Below are positions 26,460 through 49,248 of a DNA stretch of 49,564 nucleotides, piece after piece. A program made the position numbers and the translations under genes. How positions within the stretch are numbered: position 1 is the stretch's first letter; each line of letters opens with the position of its first letter. This DNA comes from Muribaculaceae bacterium (GTDB lineage Bacteria; Bacteroidota; Bacteroidia; Bacteroidales; Muribaculaceae), in NCBI GenBank assembly GCA_017547845.1, contig JAFYNZ010000052.1:1-49564 (forward strand), read 5' to 3'. The notes under the pieces were generated by a model that was not told where the DNA came from, did not search any database, and saw only the letters and a list, made by a program, of their open reading frames with translations.

Positions 26460-26486
26460 ATTGTGTTGTCTGTCTTAATTAATCTA

Positions 26487-27668
26487 TTAAAAGGCTGAAG
26501 CCACTTTGCGGTTGATGCTGATGATGTTGAAGAGGACGACTGCGAGCGTGATAGCTGCACCTACGCCCAACGACAGCCACACCGTCGCATCTGATGCTCC
26601 CATGGCACGCACGGCATCGATGTAGAGCATTCGCATTGCCAACATTGCCCCGGCCGCCAATAGGTAAGCCACTGCGTTGACCGCCACGACGAGTTGTCGA
26701 TATGGTCGACCGACCTCCTTGAGTTCATAGCCCAACATGATAAGCGAGTGCATCTTCTGACGGTTTTTCTGCATCAACAGCGAAATAGAGAGCAGCAGCA
26801 CGAAGAGCGAGAGGACAGTGATGACCGCGCCGATGGCAAGCACCACGCCGGTCGCCACGTTGAGGAAGTAGCTGGCTGTCGAGTTGGCTTTATCGCCGGC
26901 TATCTCGTAGCCATGCTCAGCGATATAGTCCTTTATCTTGACATCACCCGGGCTGCTGACATCGATTATCAAGCGTGAGGGGTCGGCACGCGCTCCGGCT
27001 GTGCGGCCGTAGCGAGAGTTGCTCCAATCCATAAACTCTTGAGGCACAAGGATTGTGTTGAGTCGATTGGAGAAGCCGACGATGCGTCCTTGCATCTCGG
27101 CACTACCTCTATCCGACGAGATACGTAGTCGCATCGGTATCGACCCTATCATCGTCTCCGAAAATTGAGGCAATCCTGTCGACGATGCAAAGCCGAAGTT
27201 GTAAAGACTGAGGTAGTCCTTAGATATGATGATAGGCACGACATTGTCGCCCTCTTCGTAGCCCCACTCATCGCTATCGACATCGACAAATTCCGATGGT
27301 ATGGACTCGAAAAACATGTAGGTCGACATGCCTCGTCCACCCTGCTGTACGGAGGCTGTCAAACTATAGTCTGCCGAGGTGAATTGTCCGACTTTTCTCA
27401 CCCACGATTGCTTCTCGATGTCGGCGATTTCCTCTGCCGAGAATGATGCACGTTCGCCGGTCAAAAATCCTGAACCCGACACCTTCTTATTGACTATCAG
27501 ATAGTCCTTCTTCATGAAGCTGTCTTCGTCTTGCCAGATTGAGCGCACATCGGTGTAGAATTGCAGACCGAGCAACACGATGAGCAACCCGATAAAATTG
27601 GCAAGCGTAAAGCCCACCAATTGTGCCATGCTCAGATTTTTTCGCAATAGTCGATGGATTATGTTCAT
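26487..27668 (-). CDS. ABC transporter permease, FtsX/MacB-like
   Basis: The protein has 393 residues. One N-terminal helix (about residues 17-37), a periplasmic domain of about 225 residues, then three C-terminal helices: this is the type VII (MacB/LolCE/FtsX) permease topology with a single set of four helices. The cytoplasmic loop RQKMHSLIMLGYELKEVGRPYRQL matches the coupling region of these permeases. It overlaps the ATPase gene by 4 bp (ATGA). The substrate is unknown; family members move lipoproteins or peptides, or transmit signals to envelope enzymes. Confidence 0.85.
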   Translation of the reverse strand: MNIIHRLLRKNLSMAQLVGFTLANFIGLLIVLLGLQFYTDVRSIWQDEDSFMKKDYLIVNKKVSGSGFLTGERASFSAEEIADIEKQSWVRKVGQFTSADYSLTASVQQGGRGMSTYMFFESIPSEFVDVDSDEWGYEEGDNVVPIIISKDYLSLYNFGFASSTGLPQFSETMIGSIPMRLRISSDRGSAEMQGRIVGFSNRLNTILVPQEFMDWSNSRYGRTAGARADPSRLIIDVSSPGDVKIKDYIAEHGYEIAGDKANSTASYFLNVATGVVLAIGAVITVLSLFVLLLSISLLMQKNRQKMHSLIMLGYELKEVGRPYRQLVVAVNAVAYLLAAGAMLAMRMLYIDAVRAMGASDATVWLSLGVGAAITLAVVLFNIISINRKVASAF

Positions 27669-28321
27669 AGTCGGAGTGTTGAGTCGGTTGATATTTTGAT
27701 ATTATTGCCCACTGATGTGGCTATTATGGACGCGCCTTGCAGACGTGCCTGCTCCATTATAATGCTTGCGGCTATCTGATTGTTCTGCTCGTCGAGGTGG
27801 CTCACCGGCTCATCAAGCAAGAGAAACGAGAACGGTTGACACAAGCATCGTATGATTGCCACACGCTGCTGCTGACCGATCGACATTCGACCGACCGGGT
27901 AGTGCTTGCGTGAGTCGATACCCAACTGATGAAGCCACTCCTCCACCTGTGCCGGCGACACATGGGAGGTCAGACGATTTTTGAGCTCAATATTCTGCAA
28001 CGCCGTAAGTTCGGGGAAGAGGTCGAGCTCTTGAGGCAGATAAGCCAACGCCTCGCGACGGATACGCTGCCACTCTGCGACACTGAATTGCGACACATCG
28101 CGACCATCTATCATGATGCGACCACAGTAGTCACGACGATTGCCATACATATAGGCACACAGCGACGACTTGCCGGTGCCGCTTGCCGCCTCTATGATGT
28201 AATGCTTGCCACGCTCAAACGCCACATCGCATTTCCACACATCTGATGCCGGAATCGCCTCATGTTCAAACACTCGAGGCAATGCATTGCGCAGCTCTAT
28301 TCTATCTATTTTCACGCTCAT
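27665..28321 (-). CDS. ABC transporter ATP-binding protein with atypical motifs
   Basis: The protein has 218 residues. Walker A reads AASGTGKSS, with alanine at the usual first glycine; Walker B is FLLLDEP, followed by a D-loop (SHLD). The signature is MSIGQQQR instead of LSGGQ, and the switch histidine position reads IIATSV. The enzyme is probably active since GTGKS and DEP are intact. The start at 28321 (MSVKIDRIEL) is preferred over 28387, whose extra 22 residues would lie across a 9-bp stem hairpin (28370-28399). It is the partner of the overlapping permease. Confidence 0.85.
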   Translation of the reverse strand: MSVKIDRIELRNALPRVFEHEAIPASDVWKCDVAFERGKHYIIEAASGTGKSSLCAYMYGNRRDYCGRIMIDGRDVSQFSVAEWQRIRREALAYLPQELDLFPELTALQNIELKNRLTSHVSPAQVEEWLHQLGIDSRKHYPVGRMSIGQQQRVAIIRCLCQPFSFLLLDEPVSHLDEQNNQIAASIIMEQARLQGASIIATSVGNNIKISTDSTLRL

Positions 28322-28369
28322 TTTCTGATTATGCCGACTGAAGATTATACCCGGAGTCGGCAGATTGGT

Positions 28370-28399
28370 GCGTGCGACCGACTTCACTCCGTCGCACGC
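28370..28399 (-). promoter_or_regulatory. Hairpin between the DUF4836-like gene and the ABC genes
   Basis: GCGTGCGAC (28370-28378) and GTCGCACGC (28391-28399) form a perfect 9-bp stem just after the DUF4836-like stop (28409). No T run follows, so partial read-through into the ABC and calcium-pump genes is likely. Confidence 0.5.
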
Positions 28400-28408
28400 T
28401 GCATACTA

Positions 28409-29860
28409 CTATCTTAGAATATCCTCGTAATCCAACTCCGCCTCTTCCAAAGCCGGATTGGTGATCTCTTTCTCATTTTGGGCTATTATCATAGCGATAG
28501 CCTCCAATATGTTGGCATGGCCGTCGTTCTTGACCTTGATGCGTGTAGTCATGCAGTCCATGGTCTCTGCGCTAATCACGCAATATTCCGCCATGTCGGC
28601 ACCTCCCACCAGTTCATTGATAAATCGGCCGTCCATATATACAGCCATCAACTTGCCGTCGAAATAGCTCTTCAGATTGTCGACACCGGTCTCGGTGACA
28701 TCACCCATCACGAATTTCACAAGTTTGTCGTCGGTAGTCAACGACATCTCAGCAGGCATTTCAGGGACAAACATTGCGACCAGATTCATCACATCGCGTG
28801 CAGCCGATGCGTCCTTGGTTTCCACCAACGCCATCAACTTAGGTTCATACCCCGGCACCGGCGAAATCTCAGCACCGGCCATCACCGTGCCGTCAAGACC
28901 TCTGACAGCATTGACCACCTTCTCCACGATAGCATTGTCTTGCGAGCCGCCTGTCAACGCAGCCATCGCCTCACTGAACGCAGAGCAGAGCGTCGCCCAC
29001 ATCTTGCTGTCGGCACCAAACGCCATCACGAAATTGCTGCTCTCAGGCAATTTACCGAGCAACGAAGCATCTATCTTAGTGAGTTCCACCACATACTCGG
29101 CAGCCTCAAACTTAGAGTTGTAGCTGCGCACTTCCACGACCACCTCATCTTTACCGAAGTCGAGCCAACCTCCTGAGTAAGCCATATCGCGCACAAACAT
29201 CTCCTGCATCATCTGCATCGCCATCTTCTGCTCCATATCGAGCTTTCCGAGCTGCATCACACGGTCGACATCATAGCAAAAGCGCAAATCCTTTTCGACG
29301 ACAGCCAAGTCTGCGACAAGTTTATTGGTCGCATAAGCTGACTCCGCCTCCTTCAAGTTGGCCCAACCGAGGATAGTGGCTGTCGACACTCCGTCAGAGA
29401 GAAACCAAAACTGATCGCCTCTGACAGCCATATTTCTATACACATCGAGATTGTCTTCAGCGGCATTCCATTCGCCACCGTCGCCATACATCTCGTCCTT
29501 CACATAGCTGCGAAACGCCTCTTGGTCTGACACATAGCCTGTCACCACTGCAGTCTTACGGTGCATAAACACCACCAAAGCGTCAGTCTTGACACCCTTC
29601 ATCTTTTCAAACTTAGCAGCGGCGTCTTCGCCCATAGCCTCTTTAAGCTTGGCTGGAAGCACAAGCTCGCCATCTTTTGCCTCTATGCCTACCTTATCGA
29701 GCACACGACCCATATCGATCACCACGACAGCCGACGTCTCTTGTGGCACAGTCTTCAACAACGCCTCTACATCAGAATTTGACGAATCGCTACAAGCACT
29801 CATGACCATCATGAACATCGCCACGACAGCCATCGGCAACCAATTGATAAACCTCTTCAT
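28409..29860 (-). CDS. DUF4836-like lipoprotein
   Basis: The protein has 483 residues with a lipoprotein signal peptide, lipobox VMSAC and cysteine at residue 23. The body begins with VPQETSAVVVIDMGRVLDKV, a start typical of the Bacteroidota DUF4836 family as I recall it, and alternates amphipathic helices and strands throughout, rich in Met, Ala and Glu. There are no catalytic motifs. It is an envelope protein of unknown function. It could head a transcript that also includes the ABC unit, the calcium pump and the carbonic anhydrase (88 bp to the ABC ATPase, with a hairpin between). A degenerate TAACTTTA box lies at 29895-29902. Confidence 0.75.
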   Translation of the reverse strand: MKRFINWLPMAVVAMFMMVMSACSDSSNSDVEALLKTVPQETSAVVVIDMGRVLDKVGIEAKDGELVLPAKLKEAMGEDAAAKFEKMKGVKTDALVVFMHRKTAVVTGYVSDQEAFRSYVKDEMYGDGGEWNAAEDNLDVYRNMAVRGDQFWFLSDGVSTATILGWANLKEAESAYATNKLVADLAVVEKDLRFCYDVDRVMQLGKLDMEQKMAMQMMQEMFVRDMAYSGGWLDFGKDEVVVEVRSYNSKFEAAEYVVELTKIDASLLGKLPESSNFVMAFGADSKMWATLCSAFSEAMAALTGGSQDNAIVEKVVNAVRGLDGTVMAGAEISPVPGYEPKLMALVETKDASAARDVMNLVAMFVPEMPAEMSLTTDDKLVKFVMGDVTETGVDNLKSYFDGKLMAVYMDGRFINELVGGADMAEYCVISAETMDCMTTRIKVKNDGHANILEAIAMIIAQNEKEITNPALEEAELDYEDILR

Positions 29861-34802: not shown

Positions 34803-35303
34803 TCACCCTCTTTGCATCAACGAGGTCTTGAGATTGGACATCTCGATGGCTGCTACTGCTGCCTCAGCGCCCTTGTTGCCAAGGCAACCGCCGGCGCGGT
34901 CGATTGCTTGCTGCTCAGTGTCGACTGTCAGCACGCCGAAGATGACTGCTGCACGCCCTTCGACATTGAGAGCCGTAATGCCTTGAGTGGCAGACTCACA
35001 GACATAATCGAAGTGTGGCGTATCGCCACGGATAACACAGCCGATAGAGATGACTGCGTCGGGCTTCAACGCATCGATAACGACTCTTGTGCCGTAGACG
35101 AGCTCCACCGAACCCGGAACGCGATGAACGTGAATGTTTTCTTCCTTGACACCTGCTTGACGCAACACATCGAGTGCACCGTCGAGCAATGCGTCGGTGA
35201 TGTGGCTATTCCATTTAGCTACGACGAGAGCGCAAGAGAAGTCTTCTTTGAGAGGTTGTGGAATCTCGAGATTCGCACCATTGGTATTAAGTATTGTTGA
35301 CAT
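34803..35303 (-). CDS. ribH: 6,7-dimethyl-8-ribityllumazine synthase
   Basis: RibH condenses the ribityl-aminouracil precursor with dihydroxybutanone phosphate, the penultimate step of riboflavin synthesis. The protein has 166 residues. Family motifs are present: VVAKWNSHITDALLDGAL, HRVPGSVELVYG, GCVIRGDTPHFDYVCES with the catalytic histidine, and FGVLTVDTEQQAIDR. It should form the usual icosahedral or pentameric assembly in the cytoplasm. It is the last gene of the recF operon, 22 bp after the TPR gene. A ribF gene lies 6 kb away on the other strand. Confidence 0.97.
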   Translation of the reverse strand: MSTILNTNGANLEIPQPLKEDFSCALVVAKWNSHITDALLDGALDVLRQAGVKEENIHVHRVPGSVELVYGTRVVIDALKPDAVISIGCVIRGDTPHFDYVCESATQGITALNVEGRAAVIFGVLTVDTEQQAIDRAGGCLGNKGAEAAVAAIEMSNLKTSLMQRG

Positions 35304-35325
35304 ATTGATTTAATGTGTGTGTTTC

Positions 35326-36180
35326 TTAGTCTTCTTTCTTGTCGGACTTGCTTGAGAAGGAGAACTTGTTGAGCATTGTTTTCCACTTCGGTTCGCGCTC
35401 GAGATCAAGGTTGATGATTTCGAGCAATGCGAGGATATCTTCTTCGAGTTCGATGGTCTCGAGAGCGATGGCGTGAGGAAGCACGGCGTTGAGCAACTGT
35501 GCGGCGCGCTGACGCATCGAGCGAATGCGAATCATGATTTCAGCCATCTCGATGGTCATCTTAATCTCTTTGCGAGTGACCTTACCGGTGCGACGCTTAG
35601 AGTATTTGATGGCTTCGGCATAGAACTTGAGTGCCACCTTGTAGTCGCCGGCAGCGGTCTGAAGTTGCGCTTCCTTGCGGAGAGAGTCGACGAGTTTGTC
35701 GGTAGCAGCCACGACGCCGGAGTTGACCTTATCGTAGAGCATGGCCGATGTCATCTGCTGCTTGACGAGCATGTCGAATGTCTTCTTACGCGAGCGAAGA
35801 ATGCGTGTCGAGAGGTCCATCGCCAAGATGTGGAACTCTCCGAAGCGTTCCTTGTCGACGGCAATCAACTTGTCGAGCACACGGAACAATATCTCGAGCA
35901 CATGCTCACTCTGCTTGTAATCCTTAAGGTCGTAGTAGATCTCCGCCAAGTCGAATAGGAGCGAAGCGAAGACTGCACGAAACTCTATGTTGTCGAAATC
36001 CGGATATTCGCGGAGTGTGCGCATGGCTTCGATGGTGCGTTCTAAGGCATCACGATAGCGCTCCTCCTTTGCCAACACGAGTGATGTCGCACGACAAGCG
36101 AGTGCTTCACTGATGATGTTATGCTCTGCCGAGCCCGCAGTCAGGGTCTCAAGGCGCAAAGGGATTTCATATTCTGTCAT
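35326..36180 (-). CDS. TPR-like helical protein, function unknown
   Basis: The protein has 284 residues with no signal peptide. It is built of paired amphipathic helices in TPR-like spacing, for example RYRDALERTIEAMRTLREYP, LFDLAEIYYDLKDYKQSEHV and AAGDYKVALKFYAEAIKYSK. It ends in a lysine/serine-rich tail (FSFSSKSDKKED). It is probably a cytoplasmic adaptor. It is located between the thioesterase and ribH genes, a place where Bacteroidota often carry a TPR gene. No more specific function can be given. Confidence 0.8.
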   Translation of the reverse strand: MTEYEIPLRLETLTAGSAEHNIISEALACRATSLVLAKEERYRDALERTIEAMRTLREYPDFDNIEFRAVFASLLFDLAEIYYDLKDYKQSEHVLEILFRVLDKLIAVDKERFGEFHILAMDLSTRILRSRKKTFDMLVKQQMTSAMLYDKVNSGVVAATDKLVDSLRKEAQLQTAAGDYKVALKFYAEAIKYSKRRTGKVTRKEIKMTIEMAEIMIRIRSMRQRAAQLLNAVLPHAIALETIELEEDILALLEIINLDLEREPKWKTMLNKFSFSSKSDKKED

Positions 36181-36226
36181 AGCTGTATGGTGTTTTTATG
36201 ATTTATATTCTTTGTGGAAAATTGTG

Positions 36227-36691
36227 CTACTTGGCAGGGGCTTGAAGGTCGCGCTGCTCGTAGTCGCGGAATTGTTGCTTCCATGTCTCAGGTATCTCGC
36301 AAGAACGCTTTGTCTCACGACTGATGCTGACCATCACTGTCTCACAGACCGACTTCACCTCGCCGGTGCTTTTCTCCACAAGCATTTGACGAAGCTTGAA
36401 GCTCTTCTCGCCAAGCACTTCGCAACGCGTGTAGACCTCCACCTTCTCGCCGAAAAGTATCGGACTGAGGTAGGAGCAATTGACATTGGCGATGACCGTG
36501 TCGACCTCACGCCAATTCATCTGACCACGACGCACGGCGTTGAAGTAGTAGGCCTTGCCGGTGTCGTAGAACGAGAAATAGACGGTGTTGTTGACATGCC
36601 CGAGTATGTCAATGTCGTTGAATCGGATTTGCACATCGGTGTGATGGCGGAAACCCTCTGTGGTATATTGTTGTCTATGATCCATAATCAT
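36227..36691 (-). CDS. Acyl-CoA thioesterase, 4HBT/YbgC-like
   Basis: The protein has 154 residues with a single hotdog fold. The signature IRFNDIDILGHVNNTVYFSF carries the catalytic aspartate and the GHVNN turn of the 4-hydroxybenzoyl-CoA thioesterase family. It hydrolyses acyl-CoA thioesters; the natural substrate is unknown and could be a short- or medium-chain acyl-CoA. Either of two ATGs (36691, 36685) could start it. It sits in the recF-ribH operon, 46 bp before the TPR gene. Confidence 0.9.
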   Translation of the reverse strand: MIMDHRQQYTTEGFRHHTDVQIRFNDIDILGHVNNTVYFSFYDTGKAYYFNAVRRGQMNWREVDTVIANVNCSYLSPILFGEKVEVYTRCEVLGEKSFKLRQMLVEKSTGEVKSVCETVMVSISRETKRSCEIPETWKQQFRDYEQRDLQAPAK

Positions 36692-36718
36692 TTACTTTTT
36701 ATCATGTTTTTATAAGTG

Positions 36719-37009
36719 TCAGATGAAACGTATTTCGCGTATCACCTCTTTGCCGAGTGCACGATTGAGCCCTTCGATCAAGGAGCTGCGACTCATCTGA
36801 AGCTCGCTGCGTATCACTGCCGATGTGACTCTGACCGACAGCACCCCGTTGTCGACACGGCGTTCGACAGTGTTGCGGTTGACCACATATCCCACTATCT
36901 TCGGCCATAACTCAAGAGCACGACGCTCGAGCAGGCGGTCTTCCATGTTACGGTCTTGGAGATACTCGTCTATTATCTCTCCGACGGTCAACGCATCTTT
37001 ACGCTTCAT
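36719..37009 (-). CDS. DUF721 (DciA-like) protein
   Basis: The protein has 96 residues. It has the DUF721 pattern: an N-terminal helix (VGEIIDEYLQDRNMEDRL), ELWPKIVGYVVNRNT, then VDNGVLSVRVTSAVIRSELQM. Proteins with this domain include DciA, which helps load the replicative helicase. The gene overlaps recF by 4 bp (ATGA), supporting a DNA replication or repair connection. Confidence 0.9.
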   Translation of the reverse strand: MKRKDALTVGEIIDEYLQDRNMEDRLLERRALELWPKIVGYVVNRNTVERRVDNGVLSVRVTSAVIRSELQMSRSSLIEGLNRALGKEVIREIRFI

Positions 37010-38121
37010 GGCATTGACTCGCTTATGGGAGCAAATCGACCATGATCCACTTCAAGCAGTCGATAGTCTCCACCTATTTGAACAAGTATCTCGTCAAGAT
37101 GTTTACGATTGGTGTCGGTGATGAATATCTGACCAAACACATCGTTGGCACTCACCACCTCCATAATCTTCTGCACCCTGTCGGCATCAAGCTTGTCGAA
37201 TATATCGTCGAGCAGCAACAATGGCGTCACGCCCGAATGTCGCTTGAGATACTCAAAGATGGCGAAACGTAATGCGATGGTGAAGGTCTTGAGCTGTCCC
37301 TGACTGCCCAATCGACGCATCGAGTAGCCATCAAGCCCCATTTCGAGGTCGTCGCGATGTATGCCGCGCGATGTGTAGCCGAGCACTTCGTCTTTTGCCC
37401 TGCATTGCTCAAAGACATCGGTGAGCGACATGTCGTTGAGCACACTGCGATAGGCTATCGATGCCACCTCGTCAGACGAAGCGATGCGACGATAGTAGCG
37501 TTCGAACGCTTCCTTCATCTCTTGCTCCACCCAGCGCGTGCGTGCAGCGTGAATGTAGTCGGCCGACTGCGCCATCTGCGACTCAATGGAATCGTAGAGC
37601 AATTTATCCTTGAAACCGACGCGCAGCATCTTATTGCGCTGCTCCAGCGACTTATTGTAGCGTATCAACTGCGACAGATAGGTCTTATCGGCTTGGGATA
37701 TCACCATATCCATCAGTTTGCGACGCTCCTCGCCACTGCCCGACACGATGCGACTGTCCTGAGGGGAAACGACCACTATCGGAAACTGTCCGATGTGTTC
37801 CGACAGCTTGTCATACTCCTTACCGTTGCGTTTGAGCGTCTTGCGTTTGCCGGCGACGATGCCACAAGAGATATTCTCCATCGAGCCCGACTGCTTCTGA
37901 TAGACACCCTGCACCATGAGCATCTCTTGCCCGTGGCGTATCAATGCCGAGTCCGGAAGCTGACCGAAACTGCGCACAAAACTCAGAAAGTAGATCGCCT
38001 CGAGCAGATTGCTCTTGCCCATACCATTCAAGCCGAGAAAGCAATTGACCCTCGGCGAAAATTCAAGCGTGGCATCAGCGATGTTCTTGAAGTTTAATAT
38101 GGATATTCTCTCTATGTACAT
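37006..38121 (-). CDS. recF: DNA replication and repair protein RecF
   Basis: RecF is an SMC-like ATPase that helps load RecA at gapped DNA. The protein has 371 residues. Walker A is LGLNGMGKSNLLEAIYFLS, the signature is GSQGQLKTFTIALRFAIFE, and Walker B is PLLLLDDIFDKLD. Other RecF features are LKRNGKEY and RKLMDMVISQ. It is the first gene of a five-gene operon (DUF721, thioesterase, TPR, ribH). A well-spaced promoter lies just upstream. The order recF-DUF721 is common in Bacteroidota. Confidence 0.97.
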   Translation of the reverse strand: MYIERISILNFKNIADATLEFSPRVNCFLGLNGMGKSNLLEAIYFLSFVRSFGQLPDSALIRHGQEMLMVQGVYQKQSGSMENISCGIVAGKRKTLKRNGKEYDKLSEHIGQFPIVVVSPQDSRIVSGSGEERRKLMDMVISQADKTYLSQLIRYNKSLEQRNKMLRVGFKDKLLYDSIESQMAQSADYIHAARTRWVEQEMKEAFERYYRRIASSDEVASIAYRSVLNDMSLTDVFEQCRAKDEVLGYTSRGIHRDDLEMGLDGYSMRRLGSQGQLKTFTIALRFAIFEYLKRHSGVTPLLLLDDIFDKLDADRVQKIMEVVSANDVFGQIFITDTNRKHLDEILVQIGGDYRLLEVDHGRFAPISESMP

Positions 38122-38131
38122 ATATCTTTGC

Positions 38132-38163
38132 CAAAATTACAAAATCAGAAGCAGACTGCCAAA
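38132..38163 (-). promoter_or_regulatory. Promoter of the recF operon
   Basis: A minus-strand TTTG (38160-38163), 20 bp and TAATTTTG (38132-38139), 11 bp from the recF start codon. The spacing is ideal; the mRNA leader should be very short. Confidence 0.75.
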
Positions 38164-38424
38164 CTTTTCTTTCTAAATATTTGCAATCAACCCAACATTT
38201 CGACATATAGACCGACATTTCTCGCTTTTAGGACCTCAAAACATTCGCCTCCAAAAGTTATCGACATGACACACTCGGCATCATTGTGGCAGAAACGACT
38301 GCAAAATTAACACGTTTCAACCCAAAAACTCCTCGATTTTGGCAGTATTTATTGGTGTAATTGGAATATAATTGTTCTTATTGGGGTAATTCGCAATTTT
38401 TTCGATAGATTTTTCTCTAAAAAA

Positions 38425-38456
38425 TTTGCACATGTGAAATTTCCGTCTTAACTTTG
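38425..38456 (+). promoter_or_regulatory. Promoter of the predicted small RNA
   Basis: TTTG (38425-38428), 20 bp and TAACTTTG (38449-38456) is a full match to the Bacteroidota housekeeping promoter. No ORF follows within 300 bp. Confidence 0.75.
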
Positions 38457-38462
38457 CACACA

Positions 38463-38556
38463 GAAAAACAAATCCAACAGAAAAGTTTAAGTCAGTAATA
38501 CAATAAAGTCAGTAAGAAGATTGGGACGTTGAGATAACGGCCCCTTTTTCTTTTTT
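38463..38556 (+). ncRNA. Predicted orphan small RNA of about 90 nt
   Basis: It lies between a perfect promoter (38425-38456) and a strong terminator. The terminator stem is GGGACGTT (38523-38530) with AACGGCCC (38536-38543), one A-G mismatch, loop GAGAT, then C, five T, C and six T. The body is A-rich (AAAACAAATCCAACAGAAAA) and contains AGTCAGTAA twice (38490-38498 and 38508-38516). There is no ATG anywhere in the transcript, so it is probably non-coding. I do not recognise it as 6S RNA, tmRNA, SRP RNA or RNase P RNA, which are longer. The exact 5' end is inferred from the -7 box. Confidence 0.6.
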
Positions 38557-38764
38557 ATACGTTTCCTATTTCCACCTCACCCCACTTCCCCACCCTCTTC
38601 TCGCTCCCCTATCCCCCACCACTGTAAGACCAACCTCACCCTCCCTCCCTCAACATTCCCATACATCCCGCTGCACGGTTAACCCCATCCACCACTTCAC
38701 CCTCCACCACATCTCACACAAAATCCCAACCAACAGGCAACTCGCATCGGTCGACTCGGAGATG
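38557..38764. other. Pyrimidine-rich gene-free tract
   Basis: The plus strand is strongly C- and T-rich with very few G (3 G in 38581-38640). It contains no ORF, promoter or hairpin that I can support. Confidence 0.5.
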
Positions 38765-38831
38765 CCTAATCCCAAATTATCGGGATATTTTGGGATTATA
38801 AACCTAAATTATCCGTATATTTTGGGTTTAG
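38765..38831. repeat. 67-bp direct repeat, left copy
   Basis: It is identical to 40032-40098 except for one base. It is two diverged tandem units of about 33 bp. Each begins AATCCCAAA or AACCTAAA, passes through TTATCsG, and ends ATATTTTGGG, making an interrupted palindrome (CCCAAA with TTTGGG). It overlaps the -33 element of the ATPase promoter. Confidence 0.85.
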
Positions 38832-38851
38832 CCATTTTTTTACTAACTTTG
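38821..38851 (+). promoter_or_regulatory. Promoter of the AAA/DUF4143 ATPase gene
   Basis: TTTG (38821-38824) lies inside the left 67-bp repeat; 19 bp later TAACTTTG (38844-38851) completes the promoter, 28 bp before the start codon. A protein bound to the repeat would block it. Confidence 0.7.
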
Positions 38852-38879
38852 CAGCAGATTTATAAAATATCACAAACCT

Positions 38880-40004
38880 ATGTTTACACGTTCTCTCCAA
38901 AGCGTAATCGAAAACAGATTGCACCAAAAAAAGGCTATTATTCTCATTGGCGCCCGACAGGTCGGCAAAAGCACCCTTTTCAACAATATAGTCCAACAAA
39001 TCCAACTGCCTACTTTGACTCTAAACTGCGATGAACCGGAAACAAGACAGATTCTGACCGACATCAATAGCAAACAATTGGCTCTGCTTATCGGCAAAAA
39101 CAAAGTAGTGGTTATCGATGAAGCTCAGCGCGTCGACAACATAGGCATGACACTCAAACTTATAACCGACAACTTCCCCGACATTCAACTCTTGGCAACC
39201 GGCTCGTCATCGTTCGAGCTCAGAAACAGGCTGAATGAGCCCTTAACAGGAAGAAAATACGAGTACACGCTATACCCGATATCGACCGAAGAGTTGATGC
39301 ACGACAAAGGTCTGCTCTATGTAAAGCAGACCCTCGACAGCCGCCTGCTTTATGGCTCATATCCCGATGTGCTCAACAACCCCGACAACGCCAAAGAAAT
39401 CCTAATGAATCTCGCTTCAAGCTATCTCTACAAAGATATTCTGGAGCATGAAGGAATACGCCGACCGGAGCTAATCAATAAGTTGCTGATAGCTTTGGCT
39501 CTGCAAGTCGGAAGCGAAGTGTCCTACAACGAACTCGCCAAGACCATCAGCACCGACAACAAGACCATCGAGCGCTACATCGATATGCTGGAAAAATGCT
39601 ATGTCATCTTCAGACTCCCGGCATTCAGTCGAAATCTCCGCACCGAACTACGCAAAAGCAAGAAAATATATTTCTACGACAATGGCATTCGCAACGCAAT
39701 TATTCAGAACTTTGCACCACTCGCGATGCGCCAAGATGTAGGGGCTCTTTGGGAAAATTTCTTCATCAGCGAACGCATTAAACGCAATCACTACAACGGT
39801 TCGTACGCACAAAGCTATTTCTGGCGAACAACTCGCCAACAAGAAGTAGACTACATCGAAATCGAAAATGGCGAAATCTCGGCGTTCGAAATGAAATGGA
39901 ATCCCAACAAAAAAGGCACACCTCTACCCAAAACATTCGAAGAGACATACTCTCCGAAACAATCGATAGTCGTTACCCCCGAAAACTTCTACGAATGGGT
40001 CTGA
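38880..40004 (+). CDS. AAA ATPase with C-terminal DUF4143 domain
   Basis: The protein has 374 residues. Walker A is GARQVGKSTLF (about residues 24-34) and Walker B is VVVIDEAQRV; the AAA_14 core ends with TGSSSFELRNRLNEPLTGR. A winged-helix-like segment follows (VSYNELAKTISTDNKTIERY, then IDMLEKCYVIFRLPAFSRN). The C-terminal DUF4143 part contains RQQEVDYIEIENGEISAFEM and then KW, in which D..E.K resembles a PD-(D/E)XK nuclease core. These ATPases are widespread, often in variable regions, and of unknown biological role. This one is bracketed by 67-bp direct repeats, and its promoter overlaps the left one. Confidence 0.93.
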   Translation: MFTRSLQSVIENRLHQKKAIILIGARQVGKSTLFNNIVQQIQLPTLTLNCDEPETRQILTDINSKQLALLIGKNKVVVIDEAQRVDNIGMTLKLITDNFPDIQLLATGSSSFELRNRLNEPLTGRKYEYTLYPISTEELMHDKGLLYVKQTLDSRLLYGSYPDVLNNPDNAKEILMNLASSYLYKDILEHEGIRRPELINKLLIALALQVGSEVSYNELAKTISTDNKTIERYIDMLEKCYVIFRLPAFSRNLRTELRKSKKIYFYDNGIRNAIIQNFAPLAMRQDVGALWENFFISERIKRNHYNGSYAQSYFWRTTRQQEVDYIEIENGEISAFEMKWNPNKKGTPLPKTFEETYSPKQSIVVTPENFYEWV

Positions 40005-40031
40005 AAAATGCAAAAAACACTCATCATCACC

Positions 40032-40098
40032 CCTAATCCCAAATTATTGGGATATTTTGGGATTATAAACCTAAATTATCCGTATATTTTGGGTTTAG
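40032..40098. repeat. 67-bp direct repeat, right copy
   Basis: It has 66 of 67 bases identical to 38765-38831 and begins 28 bp after the ATPase stop codon. The only difference is T for C in TTATyGGG. No -7 box follows at promoter spacing, so this copy is not a promoter. Confidence 0.85.
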
Positions 40099-40141
40099 AC
40101 TCATTCGTAAGGAGTAAATTAAGAGGACACTATTGACTATC

Positions 40142-40456
40142 TGCTCGTTTTTTTGCGTAACTTTAGATAAGTTCGGCTGCACTCGGCGCCCGCAGGGCAG
40201 GAGCCATTATGCGACTTGTGCCAACAAAACGATAATACAATACTGAAATCTGCGATTTCGTTTGGTACTCTGCTCTCGTTTGCGCAACTTTGGACAAGCC
40301 GAAGTTAGACGGCGGTTCGGAAAAATCGCAAACAAGTTTGCTTTTTCGCTCACCTTGCACTAACTTTAGATAAGTTTGGCGGCACTCGGCATAAACCAAA
40401 CTTGAAATCTGCGATTTCGTTTGGTGTTCTGCGCTCGTTTGCGTAACTTTGCATAG
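40142..40456 (+). repeat. Degenerate tandem repeat array carrying promoters
   Basis: It contains three to four diverged copies of a unit of roughly 90-130 bp. Shared blocks are GAAATCTGCGATTTC followed by GTTTGGT (40252 and 40404), CTCGTTTGCG (two copies), AACTTTrGAyAAG (three copies) and GCACTCGGC (two copies). The last copy includes a hairpin, CCAAAC-TT-GAAATC with GATTTC-GTTTGG (40396-40424), whose right arm supplies the -33 TTTG of a full promoter. A second hairpin, GCAAAC/GTTTGC (40328-40340), precedes a T run. Confidence 0.65.
40420..40451 (+). promoter_or_regulatory. Promoter of the HAD-ribF-PP2C transcript
   Basis: TTTG (40420-40423), 20 bp and TAACTTTG (40444-40451) is a perfect match that lies inside the repeat array. 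The leader to the HAD start codon is about 95 nt. Confidence 0.75.
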
Positions 40457-40551
40457 CTTTTTCAGAGCGCACAAAAAGATGCTGTCGAAAAGCCAAAACC
40501 ATTAACAATCCGGGGCACTATATAAAAACGCCCTCTAATACGCAATAGAAT

Positions 40552-41175
40552 ATGATTACGAAGTATGACAATATAGTGTTTGACCTTGGTGGAGTCATTG
40601 TCGACATCGACCCTCAAGCATGTATCGATGAGCTCAACAAAATCGGTCTCCACGATGCAGCAAAAATCATCGACCCTTACAAGCAACAAGGCGCTTTCCT
40701 CGACCTCGAGGAGGGCAGAATCACTGCTGCCGAGTTCTTCGACATTATGCGCTCAATGTGCAACGACAAGCAGATCAGCGACAAGGCTCTCGAAGATGCG
40801 TTCTGCGCATTTATCCCAAGCCTCCCTGTCGAACGCCTCAAGGCTCTACGCGAGCTTCGCAAGACCAAGAAGGTCTATGCCCTTTCCAACACCAACGCTA
40901 TCCTCTTCAACTGCGTAATCGACCGTCTTTTCCGTCAAGAAGGCTATGCTATCAACGACTATTTTGATGGCATCGTCACTTCATTTGCCGACCGTGCTTG
41001 CAAACCGAGTCCGAAGATTTTCAACACACTCCTTCAGCGCTACGACCTCGCCGGATCGCGCACCCTTTTCCTCGACGACTCTCAAGCCAACTGCGATGCC
41101 TCGATAGCGTGCGGCATGGACGCAATGCTTGTGCCTAAGGGCGTGGAATTTATGAACCTCCTCAACCTTGCGTGA
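40552..41175 (+). CDS. HAD superfamily hydrolase (subfamily IA)
   Basis: The protein has 207 residues. Motif I is VFDLGGVIVDID with the nucleophilic aspartate, motif II is ALSNTN, motif III is the lysine in CKPSPKIF, and motif IV is FLDDSQANCDAS. An alpha-helical cap is inserted after motif I. It is probably a sugar-phosphate or nucleotide phosphatase. It is directly coupled to ribF by a one-base stop/start overlap, so it could be the missing phosphatase step of riboflavin synthesis (dephosphorylating the ribityl-aminouracil phosphate); this is inference from context. Confidence 0.88.
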   Translation: MITKYDNIVFDLGGVIVDIDPQACIDELNKIGLHDAAKIIDPYKQQGAFLDLEEGRITAAEFFDIMRSMCNDKQISDKALEDAFCAFIPSLPVERLKALRELRKTKKVYALSNTNAILFNCVIDRLFRQEGYAINDYFDGIVTSFADRACKPSPKIFNTLLQRYDLAGSRTLFLDDSQANCDASIACGMDAMLVPKGVEFMNLLNLA

Positions 41176-42077
41176 TGACGCAGCGACGAAGACGCATCAC
41201 CACCATCGGCTCTTTCGACGGTATCCACTGCGGACACCGTCTTGTGGTCGATATGCTCCTATCGACAGCACAAGAGCGTGGTCTGACGCCATCAGTCTTC
41301 GCCTTCGCACAACACCCGTTGGAGATAATCGACCCATCACGCACTCCCCCAAAACTGATGACCTTCGAGCGTCAGCAAGCGACATTCAAAGCCCTTGGAC
41401 TCGAAGTGTTTCCTATCTATTTCACTGCCGAGATGCGACGCATGACCTCATCGGAATATATGCGTATGCTCCACGCCGACTACGATGTCGATGTGCTTGT
41501 CATCGGTTTTGACAATCGCTTTGGTTCCGACCGCGAGTCGACCATCGACGACTATCGCAAAGCAGCCGCCGAGATAGGCATTGAGGTAATCCAAGCGCCA
41601 CAGATGCCCGACATCAGTTCCACTATTATCCGCAATCTCATCAGCAATGGCGACATCGAGCAAGCCAACCACAAACTCGGCTACCACTACCCTCTGACCG
41701 GCATCGTCGAGCATGGCAAGGAATTGGGACACACCATCGGTTTCCCTACTGCAAACCTTCGCCCCGACGACGACCGCAAATTGGTGCCTGCCAATGGTGT
41801 ATATGCCGCTATCGCCATTCTGCCCGACGGCTTACGCCATGGTGCAATGGTCAACATAGGCCACCGTCCCACTATCCGCGACGGACGCACCTACCGCTCA
41901 ATCGAAGCCAACATCTTCGACTTCGACGGCAACCTCTACGACCGGACGATTACACTCGAATTCGTGGCATTTATGCGCCACGAGATACGCCTCAACTCTA
42001 TCGAAGAGTTGCGTCAACGACTCATCGACGACCGCACACAAGCTGTCGACATCCTCTCACGACTACAACAAGACTGA
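41175..42077 (+). CDS. ribF: Bifunctional riboflavin kinase / FAD synthetase
   Basis: RibF makes FMN from riboflavin and then FAD. The protein has 300 residues. The N-terminal nucleotidyltransferase domain has GSFDGIHCGHR (the HxGH motif) and QMPDISSTIIRNLI. The C-terminal riboflavin kinase domain has GIVEHGKELGHTIGFPTANL, GVYAA and NIGHRPTI. The ATG at 41175 overlaps the HAD stop by one base (TGATG); a GTG at 41172 is possible. It is part of the transcript starting in the 40142 repeat array. Confidence 0.96.
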   Translation: MTQRRRRITTIGSFDGIHCGHRLVVDMLLSTAQERGLTPSVFAFAQHPLEIIDPSRTPPKLMTFERQQATFKALGLEVFPIYFTAEMRRMTSSEYMRMLHADYDVDVLVIGFDNRFGSDRESTIDDYRKAAAEIGIEVIQAPQMPDISSTIIRNLISNGDIEQANHKLGYHYPLTGIVEHGKELGHTIGFPTANLRPDDDRKLVPANGVYAAIAILPDGLRHGAMVNIGHRPTIRDGRTYRSIEANIFDFDGNLYDRTITLEFVAFMRHEIRLNSIEELRQRLIDDRTQAVDILSRLQQD

Positions 42078-43626: not shown

Positions 43627-44424
43627 TCAACGCCTTTCCCGCTTAAATTCAGGATATTCAGCGAGGAATGCTCGCAGGTCGGTCATCATCTGCTCATACA
43701 TTTCCCTCTTGTTTTTCAGCACCGAGGGATGGTAACTGTCGATTACCACTTTGTGAGTCAAAGGAGAATACCACACCCATCCATCATCGGAAAATCTCAC
43801 CAAGTCGGGCAAGTAGCAACGATTCACAAAATCCCTTATCACGCCACCTCCTCCGCAGCAGAGGATCACGTCGGCATCATACATCTCTACTTGCTCTGCT
43901 AAGAACAAGGCATATCGCTCGATGTGCGACTTCAGGCACTCATTGCTTATCGTCGAGTCGCCTATCTGCTTCTTGCAATTGACACGCGCTATCGGCGATG
44001 TGGCGTAGATTTCGCGAAGACGATCCCAGTCGGGAGTGTCATCATAACTGAGAATCCTACCGCCTTGTAGGGCATTCAGCAGAGCATACGACCAGAGCGT
44101 CAGATTTTTGTAGAATGTTGCCAACGATGTCCTTACTTCGACACCCGTATGATTCTGACGAGCCGACTCGATGCGCATGTCGTCCATTCCACCATTAAGC
44201 GTCGTGTCTTTGGTCAGGATAAGCAATCGGCAACGGGCATCATTCCACAACTCTGTCTCATCGCCGGGTTGCATCTCCCAACAGCCGTTGATACTCCTAC
44301 ACTCACCACGAAATAGCAAACCATCGCGAGCAAATTCGTCGGTGCTTATCCCATCTCTTTCAATGCACGCCTGCAGCCACCTCGCAAACAATGCTTCTTC
44401 TCTTTGACGAAATGTCACGCTCAT
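43627..44424 (-). CDS. Uracil-DNA-glycosylase-superfamily-like protein
   Basis: The protein has 265 residues. I see a UDG-like order of elements: CRLLILTKDTTLNGG early (strand plus active-site loop), ADVILCCGGGG in the middle (the usual second-strand position), and VVIDSYHPS near the end, matching the family's HPS motif. The usual GxDP motif is not obvious, so the activity is uncertain; it may act on a different base or be a divergent member. The start at 44424 (MSVTFRQREE) overlaps the TGA of a 60-codon gene by 4 bp (ATGA), so translation is coupled. A longer frame from 44562 would read through that small gene in another phase and is rejected. Confidence 0.7.
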   Translation of the reverse strand: MSVTFRQREEALFARWLQACIERDGISTDEFARDGLLFRGECRSINGCWEMQPGDETELWNDARCRLLILTKDTTLNGGMDDMRIESARQNHTGVEVRTSLATFYKNLTLWSYALLNALQGGRILSYDDTPDWDRLREIYATSPIARVNCKKQIGDSTISNECLKSHIERYALFLAEQVEMYDADVILCCGGGGVIRDFVNRCYLPDLVRFSDDGWVWYSPLTHKVVIDSYHPSVLKNKREMYEQMMTDLRAFLAEYPEFKRERR

Positions 44425-44606
44425 CACTTGCCTGATTTTGAGGACAGTATCGCACCACCGACACAACCAACGGCTGCACCTATCAATATGGCCGGCAAAG
44501 TGATTGGCGCACTGACTGCTGCAGCGATTGCTGCTACTGCGCCGGCTCCTGCTGTTGCACATGTTCCTGCGATTGCGATTTCTTCTTTTGCGTTATTCTT
44601 ACTCAT
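44424..44606 (-). CDS. Small Gly/Ala-rich hydrophobic peptide
   Basis: The peptide has 60 residues. A charged start (MSKNNAKEE) is followed by about 45 residues of small and hydrophobic amino acids with Gly-zipper spacing (TAGAGAVAAIAAAVSAP, then GAAVGCVGGAI) and a short basic end (SSKSGK). It could be a membrane-inserting peptide, bacteriocin-like or toxin-like, but no processing protease or exporter is adjacent. It has an ATGA overlap with the UDG-like gene and is first in the two-gene unit. A promoter box TAACTTTG lies at 44691-44698. Confidence 0.7.
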   Translation of the reverse strand: MSKNNAKEEIAIAGTCATAGAGAVAAIAAAVSAPITLPAILIGAAVGCVGGAILSSKSGK

Positions 44607-44662
44607 TGTCTTATGATTTAAAAGTTTATAATTAGCCGCCGAGTAGTCTTACAAAACGACGA

Positions 44663-44698
44663 GCGACAGACTTCGTTCTGAAATCTGTCGCAAAGTTA
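44663..44698 (-). promoter_or_regulatory. Promoter and overlapping palindrome of the peptide/UDG-like unit
   Basis: A minus-strand TAACTTTG at 44691-44698. A perfect inverted repeat GCGACAGA (44663-44670) and TCTGTCGC (44684-44691), with inner TTC/GAA pairing, ends on the last base of the -7 box. It would cover the transcription start and so looks like an operator. Confidence 0.5.
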
Positions 44699-44740
44699 CC
44701 GCCTCTCCGAAAGTCAATAAATGACGTCAATTAGATTTAC

Positions 44741-45778
44741 TTATTTTTCTGCTTTCATGCGTCGCATCAACTCATCTAAAATGTCTTCAATCTTTCCATC
44801 GACTCTGGTGGTGTCGCCATCTCGCCCCTTTCTGATTTCGTCTATTTTCTCATGTTGTGAAGACAAAATTATCGGCGTAAAAAGGCTCCACGGAATTCTA
44901 TCCGGCAACACTACTTTGATTTCACTAACTTCGAAAAACCTTTGAATCAAATACGCAAATTCGAAATTTTCCCAATCGTTTATAACCCAACATTTTTCGT
45001 ACAAAGGATAAGGCGCGATTATATTCTCCTCTTCCAATATCTTCAGAAATGTCGTGAAATATCGTGCAGCATCATCTTTATAGACTCTTTGCCGGCTTGT
45101 GGTCTTCTCGTCAAACTGTTTCAGCACGCCATCATAGACCTTGAGAGTGTAGCGAGTGCGAACTTCCGTGTTTTTCTTACGCCCCGATTTTTTCTTTGCC
45201 TTGGCAGGCTTTTCCATTATCCTATCATAGTTTTCAGGTCGCAAAAACCATTGATAGACATTGCGAATCACCTTGGTAGCCACCGCCGCCACATCTTCGA
45301 CACTCTCCTCCTCGCCCAATCTGAACCAGAAAGGCCAGTAGGTCATGTCGCTGACATTATCGGTCGGTATGTCACGCTTGAAGAAGTCCAAATCGACAAA
45401 CGTATGATTCAACGCGCCTATCACTTCTCGATGAATATTTCTCCACTCTTTATTGCACACCCTGACTTGTGTGGCAATTTTCTCATCGGCATTAAGAGTG
45501 CAACGACAGCCGAAATAGATGCCATAAGCAAGATTGTAAGGGTCAAACTCTACCAAGAACACATACTTTCGTCCATCTTTACCCTCCAAATAGAGATTAC
45601 CGTCATCACAGCGAAGCTTATACATGATAATCGGATCGATAGGTTTATCTCTCACAAAGTTGTCGCACACAAAGTCGGGATGATTATCCAAGACCTTGAT
45701 ACGCTCACTGTATCTATCAATACACTCTTGCACCAATCTCTTATTGATGCGTTTCACTTCGTCTTGACAATTTGACAT
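44741..45778 (-). CDS. Protein of unknown function, 345 residues
   Basis: I do not recognise this protein. It has no signal peptide or membrane helix. The N-terminal half is mixed alpha/beta with GRKYVFLVEFDPYNLAYGIY and a cysteine (GCRC). A strongly basic linker (EKPAKAKKKSGRKKNTEVRT) splits it from a helical C-terminal half with DDAARYFTTFLKILEEENII and WENFEFAYLIQRFFEVSEIK. The basic linker suggests nucleic-acid contact. The minus strand is chosen because it has a full promoter; a 277-codon antisense frame lacks one. It is next to the peptide/UDG-like unit and near tRNA-Tyr, in what may be a variable site. Confidence 0.75.
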   Translation of the reverse strand: MSNCQDEVKRINKRLVQECIDRYSERIKVLDNHPDFVCDNFVRDKPIDPIIMYKLRCDDGNLYLEGKDGRKYVFLVEFDPYNLAYGIYFGCRCTLNADEKIATQVRVCNKEWRNIHREVIGALNHTFVDLDFFKRDIPTDNVSDMTYWPFWFRLGEEESVEDVAAVATKVIRNVYQWFLRPENYDRIMEKPAKAKKKSGRKKNTEVRTRYTLKVYDGVLKQFDEKTTSRQRVYKDDAARYFTTFLKILEEENIIAPYPLYEKCWVINDWENFEFAYLIQRFFEVSEIKVVLPDRIPWSLFTPIILSSQHEKIDEIRKGRDGDTTRVDGKIEDILDELMRRMKAEK

Positions 45779-48267: not shown

Positions 48268-49248
48268 CTATATCGATAGACGATGGAGAGTGTCGAGAAG
48301 ATTGCGATTGATCGGTTTCTCGTTCTTAATCGCCTTTGAGAATGGCACATAGACTATCTCGTCATTCTTAACACCTATCATCACATTGCGTTGATCGTCG
48401 AGCAAGGCATCGATGGCAGCAGCTCCCATGCGTGAGGCAAGAATGCGGTCGTAGGCCGTCGGTCGGCCGCCACGCTGAAGGTGACCGAGGATTGTGACAC
48501 GCACATCATATTCGGGATACTCGTTCTTGACACGCTCAGCAAGGGCCATCGCTCCACCTGTGACAGGGCTTTCTGCCACAAGCACAATCGATGAGTTTTT
48601 CGACTTACGGAAGCCCGCCTTAATGAGTTCGCCAAGCTGATCGACTTCGGTCGATATCTCAGGGATAATGGCAGCTTCGGCTCCCGATGCAATCGCACCG
48701 TTGAGAGCAAGGAAACCGGCATCGCGTCCCATCACCTCGATGAAGAAAAGTCGCTCATGGCTGGTCGCTGTGTCGCGTATCTTATCGACACACTCAAGTA
48801 TAGTGTTGAGTGCTGTGTCGTAGCCTATGGTGCAGTCGGTGCCGTAGAGGTCGTTGTCGATAGTGCCCGGCAGTCCGACGATAGGCACAGAAAACTCGTT
48901 GCCGAAAATGCGTGCGCCTGTCAGCGAGCCGTCGCCTCCGATTACGACCAAAGCATCGATTTTGTATCGGCGCAACGTCTCGTAGGCTTGACGGCGACCC
49001 TCTTCAGTCTGAAACTCCTTGCAACGAGCCGTCTTGAGAATAGTGCCTCCACGCTGAATGATATTCGAAACATTCTGAGTCGAAAACTCCTCTATTTCAT
49101 CGGCTATAAGGCCGCGGTAGCCATGATAGATGCCATAGACTTTAATGCCGGCATAGATAGCGGCACGAGTGACGGCGCGTATAGCGGCATTCATGCCCGG
49201 AGCATCACCCCCGGAGGTCAAGATGCCGATGGATTTTATTGTTGACAT
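48268..49248 (-). CDS. pfkA: ATP-dependent 6-phosphofructokinase
   Basis: PfkA phosphorylates fructose 6-phosphate to the 1,6-bisphosphate, the committed step of glycolysis. The protein has 326 residues, standard for the bacterial enzyme. Motifs are [28 protein letters not shown] (glycine after GGD indicates ATP, not diphosphate, as donor), [13 protein letters not shown] with the catalytic aspartate, [11 protein letters not shown] and LGHLQRGG. It is monocistronic. The upstream 18 bp is followed by TTAAGGG, which resembles the start of the dispersed repeat. Confidence 0.97.

Follow-up and report, generated by a model that had tools for sequence, protein, structure and literature searches.

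A PDC-S01-type AAA/DUF4143 ATPase that very probably recognises the tandem dyad array in its own promoter

We present evidence that an AAA/DUF4143 ATPase encoded by a Muribaculaceae bacterium very probably binds, through the recognition helix of a predicted winged-helix domain, a tandem array of dyads that stands in the promoter of its own gene; the helix and the half-sites of its own array change together under an amino acid-base code, and it is from this that we draw the conclusion. The gene lies in the 49,564-nucleotide stretch of DNA analysed here (the window, from the assembly we call G000). We think it likely that it encodes a self-recognising, probably autoregulated ATPase-nuclease, and that paired arrays, of the kind that bracket the gene in the window, let it be lost or gained as a unit.

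The two 67-bp repeats on either side of the gene (Table 1) are identical at 66 of 67 bases, with a single mismatch, an identity far beyond chance, and the near-identical pair described in an earlier note on this DNA is thus borne out. They are the only two matches to the repeat in the 2.32-Mb assembly, which is 89.83% complete. Some details of the earlier note need correction, in that we count 48 bp from the left repeat to the ATG and 27 bp from the stop codon to the right repeat, not 49 and 28 bp, and in that the tandem units do have dyad symmetry but are 32 bp and not 33 bp long. The dyad arms of the first unit are 15 nt at 93% complementarity in the left array and 14 nt at 93% in the right; the CCCAAA/TTTGGG dyad that had been ascribed to every unit is present in unit 1, whereas unit 2 has CCTAAA/TTTGGG. 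The left repeat also appears, as had been proposed, to hold the -33 element of the gene's promoter, since a -33-like TTTG lies within it, 19 bp before a TAnnTTTG box; a TAnnTTTG box together with a TTTG at -33 is the Bacteroidetes promoter consensus. We note separately that partial repeats of two families (61 nt at 85% and 30 nt at 93%) are found to the right of the right array, at 40158-40452, and that 40361-40452 has a 77% match elsewhere in the related genome G104 and resembles a dispersed repeat.

Table 1. Positions of the arrays, the promoter, the ATPase gene and the parts of its product in the window
Feature	Position	Strand	Description and basis
Left array	38765..38831	.	Two tandem 32-bp dyads, 38767-38798 and 38799-38830; proposed operator and ATPase binding site
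Right array	40032..40098	.	Near-identical second copy; units 40034-40065 and 40066-40097
Putative promoter	38821..38851	+	TTTG at 38821-38824, inside the array; TAACTTTG at 38844-38851; read from sequence
AAA_14/DUF4143 ATPase gene	38880..40004	+	374 aa, PADLOC PDC-S01 type; ORF, Pfam, PADLOC model
Winged-helix part, residues 196-266	39465..39677	+	AlphaFold2 model, weak HTH profile matches at about 202-242, covariation
Recognition helix, residues 227-239	39558-39596	+	Lys228 codon at 39561-39563
Nuclease-like PD-(D/E)xK part, residues 287-365	39738..39974	+	E298, D324, E337-x-K339; conservation and helix/strand order of the model

An array in front of the gene is a trait of the family. Upstream tandem repetition exceeded that of shuffled sequence in 89 of 99 relatives' loci, nearly all with a period of 32 or 33, and an upstream dyad did so in 74 of the 99 (4 of 103 loci having been dropped as short or containing N, and a few records being repeated under two locus ids). 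A larger set of 183 loci, which remained once 4 duplicates among 190 loci and then 3 short or N-rich loci among 186 had been removed, had an upstream array that reached a fixed score in 132, with periods of 32 (86 loci), 33 (42), 34 (2), 24 (1) and 28 (1). The same score was attained, with scattered periods, by 9 of 179 control stretches taken 300-460 bp downstream. A four-half-site model scored above its shuffled 95% limit in 157 of the 183. The sequence of the array is diverse among relatives, while its geometry and position are kept, and its end lies 14-18 bp before the TAnnTTTG box in 70 of 119 loci (119 of 131 had both). Most relatives carry the upstream array only, so bracketing by repeats is not a general feature of the family, and the array, which has what appears to be the anatomy of an operator, would be first of all a promoter element.

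The ATPase matches Pfam AAA_14 at residues 17-139 (98.7 bits; curated cut-off 27) and DUF4143 at residues 185-341 (150.4 bits; curated cut-off 28.1). It also matches the PADLOC PDC-S01 model PDLC04789 over its full length, residues 1-374 of 374 (549.5 bits, E 9.1e-166, with no curated cut-off displayed for the model), and the relatives tested likewise match PDC-S01 models. An AlphaFold2 model built with 66 sequences (pLDDT 89.7) comprises a predicted AAA+ part (about residues 1-160), the winged helix and the nuclease-like part. The latter agrees with the nuclease-like C-terminal motif pointed out in the earlier note, both in its conserved residues and in the modelled order of its fold: E298 and K339 are invariant among the 66 sequences, with D324 and E337 each conserved at 90% or more, and we take this pattern to be a PD-(D/E)xK motif. 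A search of solved structures by sequence found no relative at E 0.01; the best fold match of the model is the archaeal AAA+ ATPase SSO1545 (2fna; E 5.5e-9, TM 0.51), and further matches include RuvB and Orc1/Cdc6 (2qby, origin-bound Orc1/Cdc6). We note that the same assembly encodes a second PDC-S01-type DUF4143 protein, of another subtype (L004 on contig C4, gene at L004:799-2139; PDLC04786, 508.9 bits); its leader contains, by eye, a direct repeat of about 33 bp, and period-33 repeats may reach other DUF4143 subtypes.

That the protein and the array belong together is indicated by covariation. Half-sites were registered from the DNA alone, in a half-period register, and 26 of 157 loci were dropped from the covariation set (array score below 10, or at least 90% identical to another). 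Among 318 alignment columns, residue 228, at the start of the predicted recognition helix, was the one that best tracked half-site distance after correction for overall distance (0.393, the next column reaching 0.256). Partial correlations over all pairs were 0.266 for the winged helix, 0.117 for the AAA part, 0.006 for the helical part and 0.114 for the nuclease part; among near pairs the recognition helix was highest (0.305), and the nuclease part (0.228) exceeded the winged helix as a whole (0.178). The identity of residue 228 goes with that of base 6 of the half-site, lysine with C in 69 of 71 loci, asparagine with A in 16 of 17, glutamate with G in 14 of 16, aspartate with G in 3 of 4 and valine with A in 4 of 4. 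On either strand, lysine and arginine prefer G, asparagine prefers A, and glutamate and aspartate prefer C, and the pairings of the code fit these preferences.

The code was frozen, together with the register, before it was applied to held-out loci: K or R predicts C; N, V, S, I or H predicts A; and E, D or Q predicts G. A class-wide search supplied 89 such loci, of which 88 were usable (one being short or N-rich) and 70 of the 88 had an array above the limit (63 with period 32 and 7 with period 33). Thirteen of these 70 carry A, G, L or T at residue 228, outside the code, and among the 57 scored the prediction was correct in 50, against a permutation mean of 19.0 and a maximum of 34 in 10,000. 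By residue, K-C held in 20 of 21, N-A in 20 of 20 and E-G in 9 of 10, with 30 of 36 correct when lysine is left aside; the seven misses fall on K (1), E (1), V (1), Q (2), D (1) and S (1). Over all 201 loci the counts are 89 of 92 for K-C, 36 of 37 for N-A and 23 of 26 for E-G, and in 77 disjoint closest pairs with differing predicted bases both members were right in 62 and one in 15. Of the 9 held-out loci with Ala228, 6 (L356, L358, L365, L371, L380 and L392) have T at base 6, a pairing that was not predicted beforehand and is a possible further line of the code.

Tests that take the tree into account point the same way for N-A, with 6.9 pairs changing in the same direction and 0.0 in the opposite one (median p 0.016), and for K/R-C (5.0 versus 0.2) and E/D-G (4.6 versus 0.0; median p 0.0625 for each of these two), the pairs being few and only partly reaching p below 0.05. 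In an analysis of co-change along branches (2464 tests), the first three ranks went to residues 226, 230 and 228, paired with bases 6, 8 and 5 respectively. The combination of residue 228 and base 6 is missing from the 20 tests listed, of which 4 were winged-helix tests, no more than about their share. A test on 65 disjoint pairs placed residue 228 third of 315 columns, behind residues 129 and 221, and when registers were mixed the four domains behaved alike, with residue 228 narrowly ahead. Recognition by the ATPase of a site in its own promoter is what the covariation indicates, and the suggestion made earlier that the gene product binds the borders of its own gene is, at the level of sequence, strongly supported by the residue-base code and the held-out test.

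Outside Bacteroidota, a homologue on a Treponema plasmid (L317, Leu228) has, by eye, a period-32 array, and one on a Desulfosarcina plasmid (L316, Glu228) has, also by eye, a dyad in which the expected base is G; among five homologues from plasmid and phage collections inspected in this way, L317 and L319 have arrays, L316 the dyad, L318 at best a weak one and L320 none that is clear. Relatives of the ATPase account for 521 plasmid records, all below 60% identity, and for 23 records of the phage collection, 19 of them named only 'Bacteriophage'. A scan of IMG/VR for relatives gave four pattern matches, none of which was confirmed; viral carriage was among the readings rejected.

The right-hand array is a recurrent minority trait. 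An array, or in L048 a half-array, follows the gene in 12 of 183 loci, the window and G104 included, as judged from inspection of the best direct repeats, and three held-out loci (L337, L373 and L327) appear to have a similar downstream array. When each locus was scanned strictly for its own half-site, a downstream array came up in 7 of 153 loci, as against 2 of 1530 with foreign half-sites. The downstream arrays are of several unrelated types, and in most cases the end of the block shared with the upstream side coincides with that of the array, give or take a few bases; in L048 it takes in 12 further bases on the promoter side, and L106 has a far larger repeated block of which the array is a part. 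The two copies within a genome are more alike than the arrays of different species, and both arrays are identical to each other in G302 and likewise in G711. We considered whether the bracket in the window is the remnant of a tandem gene duplication, and rejected this because the two sides share no sequence beyond the ends of the arrays.

Arrays also occur without the gene. A strict tandem pattern, which the window's own array does not fit, was present in 18 of 397 family genomes and its reversed control in 0 of 397, with at most two array sites in each of the 18; with this and the two copies in the assembly, the repeat is not frequent away from such ATPase genes. A single-unit pattern was found in 24 of 297 genomes, with one match for its control. 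The ATPase gene stands between two arrays in G298, G212, G302 and G711 and behind one in G863, G177, G011, G042 and G717. Five solo arrays have no ATPase gene in their 1.5-kb flanks (G193, G301, G142, G749 and G210, the last with an ATPase elsewhere in the genome), and in G873, G134 and G730 the array lies at a contig edge. In L415 (G772), at 1067-1594, the C-terminal part only of an ATPase (profile 233-374) lies beside an array of three near-identical units and looks decayed.

The clearest comparison is between G302 and G298, where the order is melibiase, array, ATPase, array and AI-2E transporter, and G193, where it is melibiase, one array and transporter, with both flanking genes at 92-98% protein identity to those of G302/G298. 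With regard to a target-site duplication past the ends of the element, no repeated sequence was seen at the G302/G298/G193 site other than the array and a few bases next to it, and over the interval from array to transporter G302 and G193 align poorly. G212 has the array-ATPase-array order before the same transporter, with no melibiase match in the contig retrieved; the sequence retrieved for the other five genomes of the genus has no array pattern except for the solo array of G301, about 1.2 kb from the transporter. Between G302 and G298 the ATPase gene is 73.3% identical at the nucleotide level and its flanking genes 86.8% and 79.4%, and a divergence no smaller than that of the neighbours fits a gene that stayed in place rather than one that arrived recently; the ATPase may predate the split of G302 and G298 and have then been lost from G193. 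We note that in G297 (L231, 291-1370) a distant ATPase, 24% identical, lies at the same transporter without the array pattern.

A second, messier case is the PEPCK-mutS locus, at which G749 has a solo array and L048/G717 has array, ATPase and half-array; there the half-array and a 5' segment of mutS are also repeated, so this locus has been rearranged. Empty sites with a single copy, which the earlier note had proposed to look for, therefore exist at one clear locus and one messier one, and none of the gene-free sites examined retains both copies. A formate/nitrite transporter gene of G142 takes its stop codon from the solo array; the relative G131 has no array there. The gene next after the ATPase in G131 is preceded in G056 and G058 by a single unit, promoter-like sequence and 18 bp resembling the end of the ATPase gene, an arrangement that we read as a decayed locus. 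From the one clean locus, the messy one and the solo arrays, we infer that the gene has been lost or gained at arrays.

We suggest that the gene product may act as a three-part DNA enzyme, in which an AAA+ ATPase is combined with a winged-helix reader and a nuclease of PD-(D/E)xK type, and whose reader very probably recognises the tandem dyad array of its own gene. Because the upstream array overlaps the -33 promoter region, protein bound there would be expected to repress or meter its own gene. Exchange between the arrays could remove or add a bracketed gene as a cassette, and would be driven either by the protein itself or by ordinary recombination between direct repeats; passive recombination of this kind would leave the same single array, and so an active role for the protein is not implied. 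A special case of this explanation, for which we judge the chances to be about even, is that the arrays are autoregulatory sites of which a copy is occasionally duplicated, and that RecA recombination or slippage deletes the gene and leaves one array behind. The upstream array is the common state and sits at the promoter position, the gene in G302/G298 has diverged in step with its surroundings, and ordinary deletion occurs readily between direct repeats of 67 bp at a spacing of about 1.2 kb. What such passive loss explains less well is that the downstream copy recurs with unrelated array types, mostly ending at the array ends, and that copies within a genome resemble each other more than copies from different species do.

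It is also conceivable, although we regard it as doubtful, that the ATPase is an anti-phage effector that is kept low and parked on its own arrays and freed by infection, in which case the second array would offer extra parking. PDC-S01 is a phage-defence candidate and is counted among the most common defence types, being, according to the passages that concern it, the fourth most common defence across prokaryotes (PMC12988326) and the most frequent individual locus in a rumen survey (PMC13356809). Against this, validation is described as pending for most such candidates in the relevant passage (PMC12988326), no neighbouring defence gene is found by Pfam among the 16 annotated proteins of the window, and nothing in the present results links the arrays to infection. 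The passages on PDC-S01 in these two papers (PMC12988326, PMC13356809) give no function for it, nor do they mention arrays, a residue-base code, a downstream array or gene-free single-array sites. In one open-access literature library we found no description of the arrays in print.

The whole locus can be compared with that of the sister genome G104 (contig SUXG01000005.1, a Bacteroidales MAG; L012/L041), which has the same gene, with a 97% identical protein, in the same place and with both arrays. At fourfold-degenerate sites the ATPase genes of G000 and G104 differ at 34 of 144 positions (0.24), whereas seven other compared genes, from 34803 to 42077, have a divergence of 0.51-0.66, and the block of homology extends from the left array to about 40292. 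This low divergence would support exchange, only weakly, because nine other window genes are also low (0.13-0.41). We note that the segments 23757-29860 and 43627-45778 have low fourfold divergence from G104 (0.13-0.39) and lie beside genes whose divergence is at least 0.5, in a mosaic of segments that were either exchanged or inherited, and that the phosphofructokinase gene at 48268-49248 has 94.5% DNA identity to the G104 copy, which is inverted and elsewhere relative to its neighbours. No empty site of the window locus was found among 30 fetched loci of the HAD neighbour (75 genomes had a match); among these 30 the ATPase is seen in G000 and G104 only, and the other 28 loci are without the recF-like or dciA genes and so give no synteny by which to judge.

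We consider it unlikely that the ATPase-nuclease actively cuts or synapses the arrays and so brings about excision, gene conversion or homing-like insertion into a lone array. The nuclease residues are conserved, the same protein probably recognises the array, solo arrays exist, G302 and G711 each have identical arrays, and the low-divergence patchwork of G000 and G104 begins at the left array. Nevertheless, with nine other window genes also low in divergence, that patchwork is not specific to the unit, the ATPase is absent from the IMG/VR scan, and the same unit was not found at two unrelated places, either in G000, which has one copy of the type, or in the compared loci, among which those between species are few; the self-contained mobile unit envisaged earlier was thus not caught moving. 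We would likewise give little credence to the idea that such PDC-S01 ATPases are selfish cassettes which target themselves, and not plain defence genes, with arrays read by the code, exchange triggered by the nuclease, homing-like spread into lone arrays and the promoter array as a brake. That the repeats are the ends of an insertion sequence, a MITE or a terminator not connected with the ATPase is highly improbable, for although palindromic repeats do stand at both ends of one gene and two single-unit pattern matches (L155 and L159) look terminator-like by eye, a Pfam search of the ATPase returned AAA_14 and DUF4143 and no transposase domain, the arrays go with this family of genes and vary with its recognition helix, the array lies within the promoter, and Rfam at gathering thresholds gave no match across 38400-40600. 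The array as an RNA element is disfavoured by the same Rfam search.

The self-recognising ATPase that we favour has points in common with several known systems. RAYTs and their REP/REPIN sequences, in the accounts we drew on, likewise consist of a palindrome-bracketed gene whose product is thought to recognise the palindromes, and gene-free copies exist. RAYTs, however, are tyrosine (HUH) transposases, and the protein here is predicted to have AAA+, winged-helix and PD-(D/E)xK-like domains; REPs are present in many copies per genome, whereas the repeat described here has two, and the pattern-bearing family genomes no more than two sites each. Orc1/Cdc6 and SSO1545 share with the modelled protein an AAA+ fold and a DNA-binding winged helix, but here the arrays are at promoters without sign of an origin, and the third domain is nuclease-like. 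Homing endonuclease genes are present or absent at the site that their product recognises, and the gene splits and so hides its target. The gene described here similarly codes for a nuclease-like protein and occupies some, but not all, of the sites which that protein could recognise, but whole arrays stand on both sides of it and the target is not split. Lastly, the likeness to PDC-S01 is that of a full-length protein match; PADLOC defines PDC-S01 by the protein alone, and the arrays and the residue-base code are what is added here.

For an abundant and uncharacterised family, a DNA target together with the residue that would select it turns these ATPases into a testable DNA-binding system, and the prediction of targets from sequence becomes possible. 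The findings also raise the question of whether all PDC-S01 genes are rightly counted as defence.
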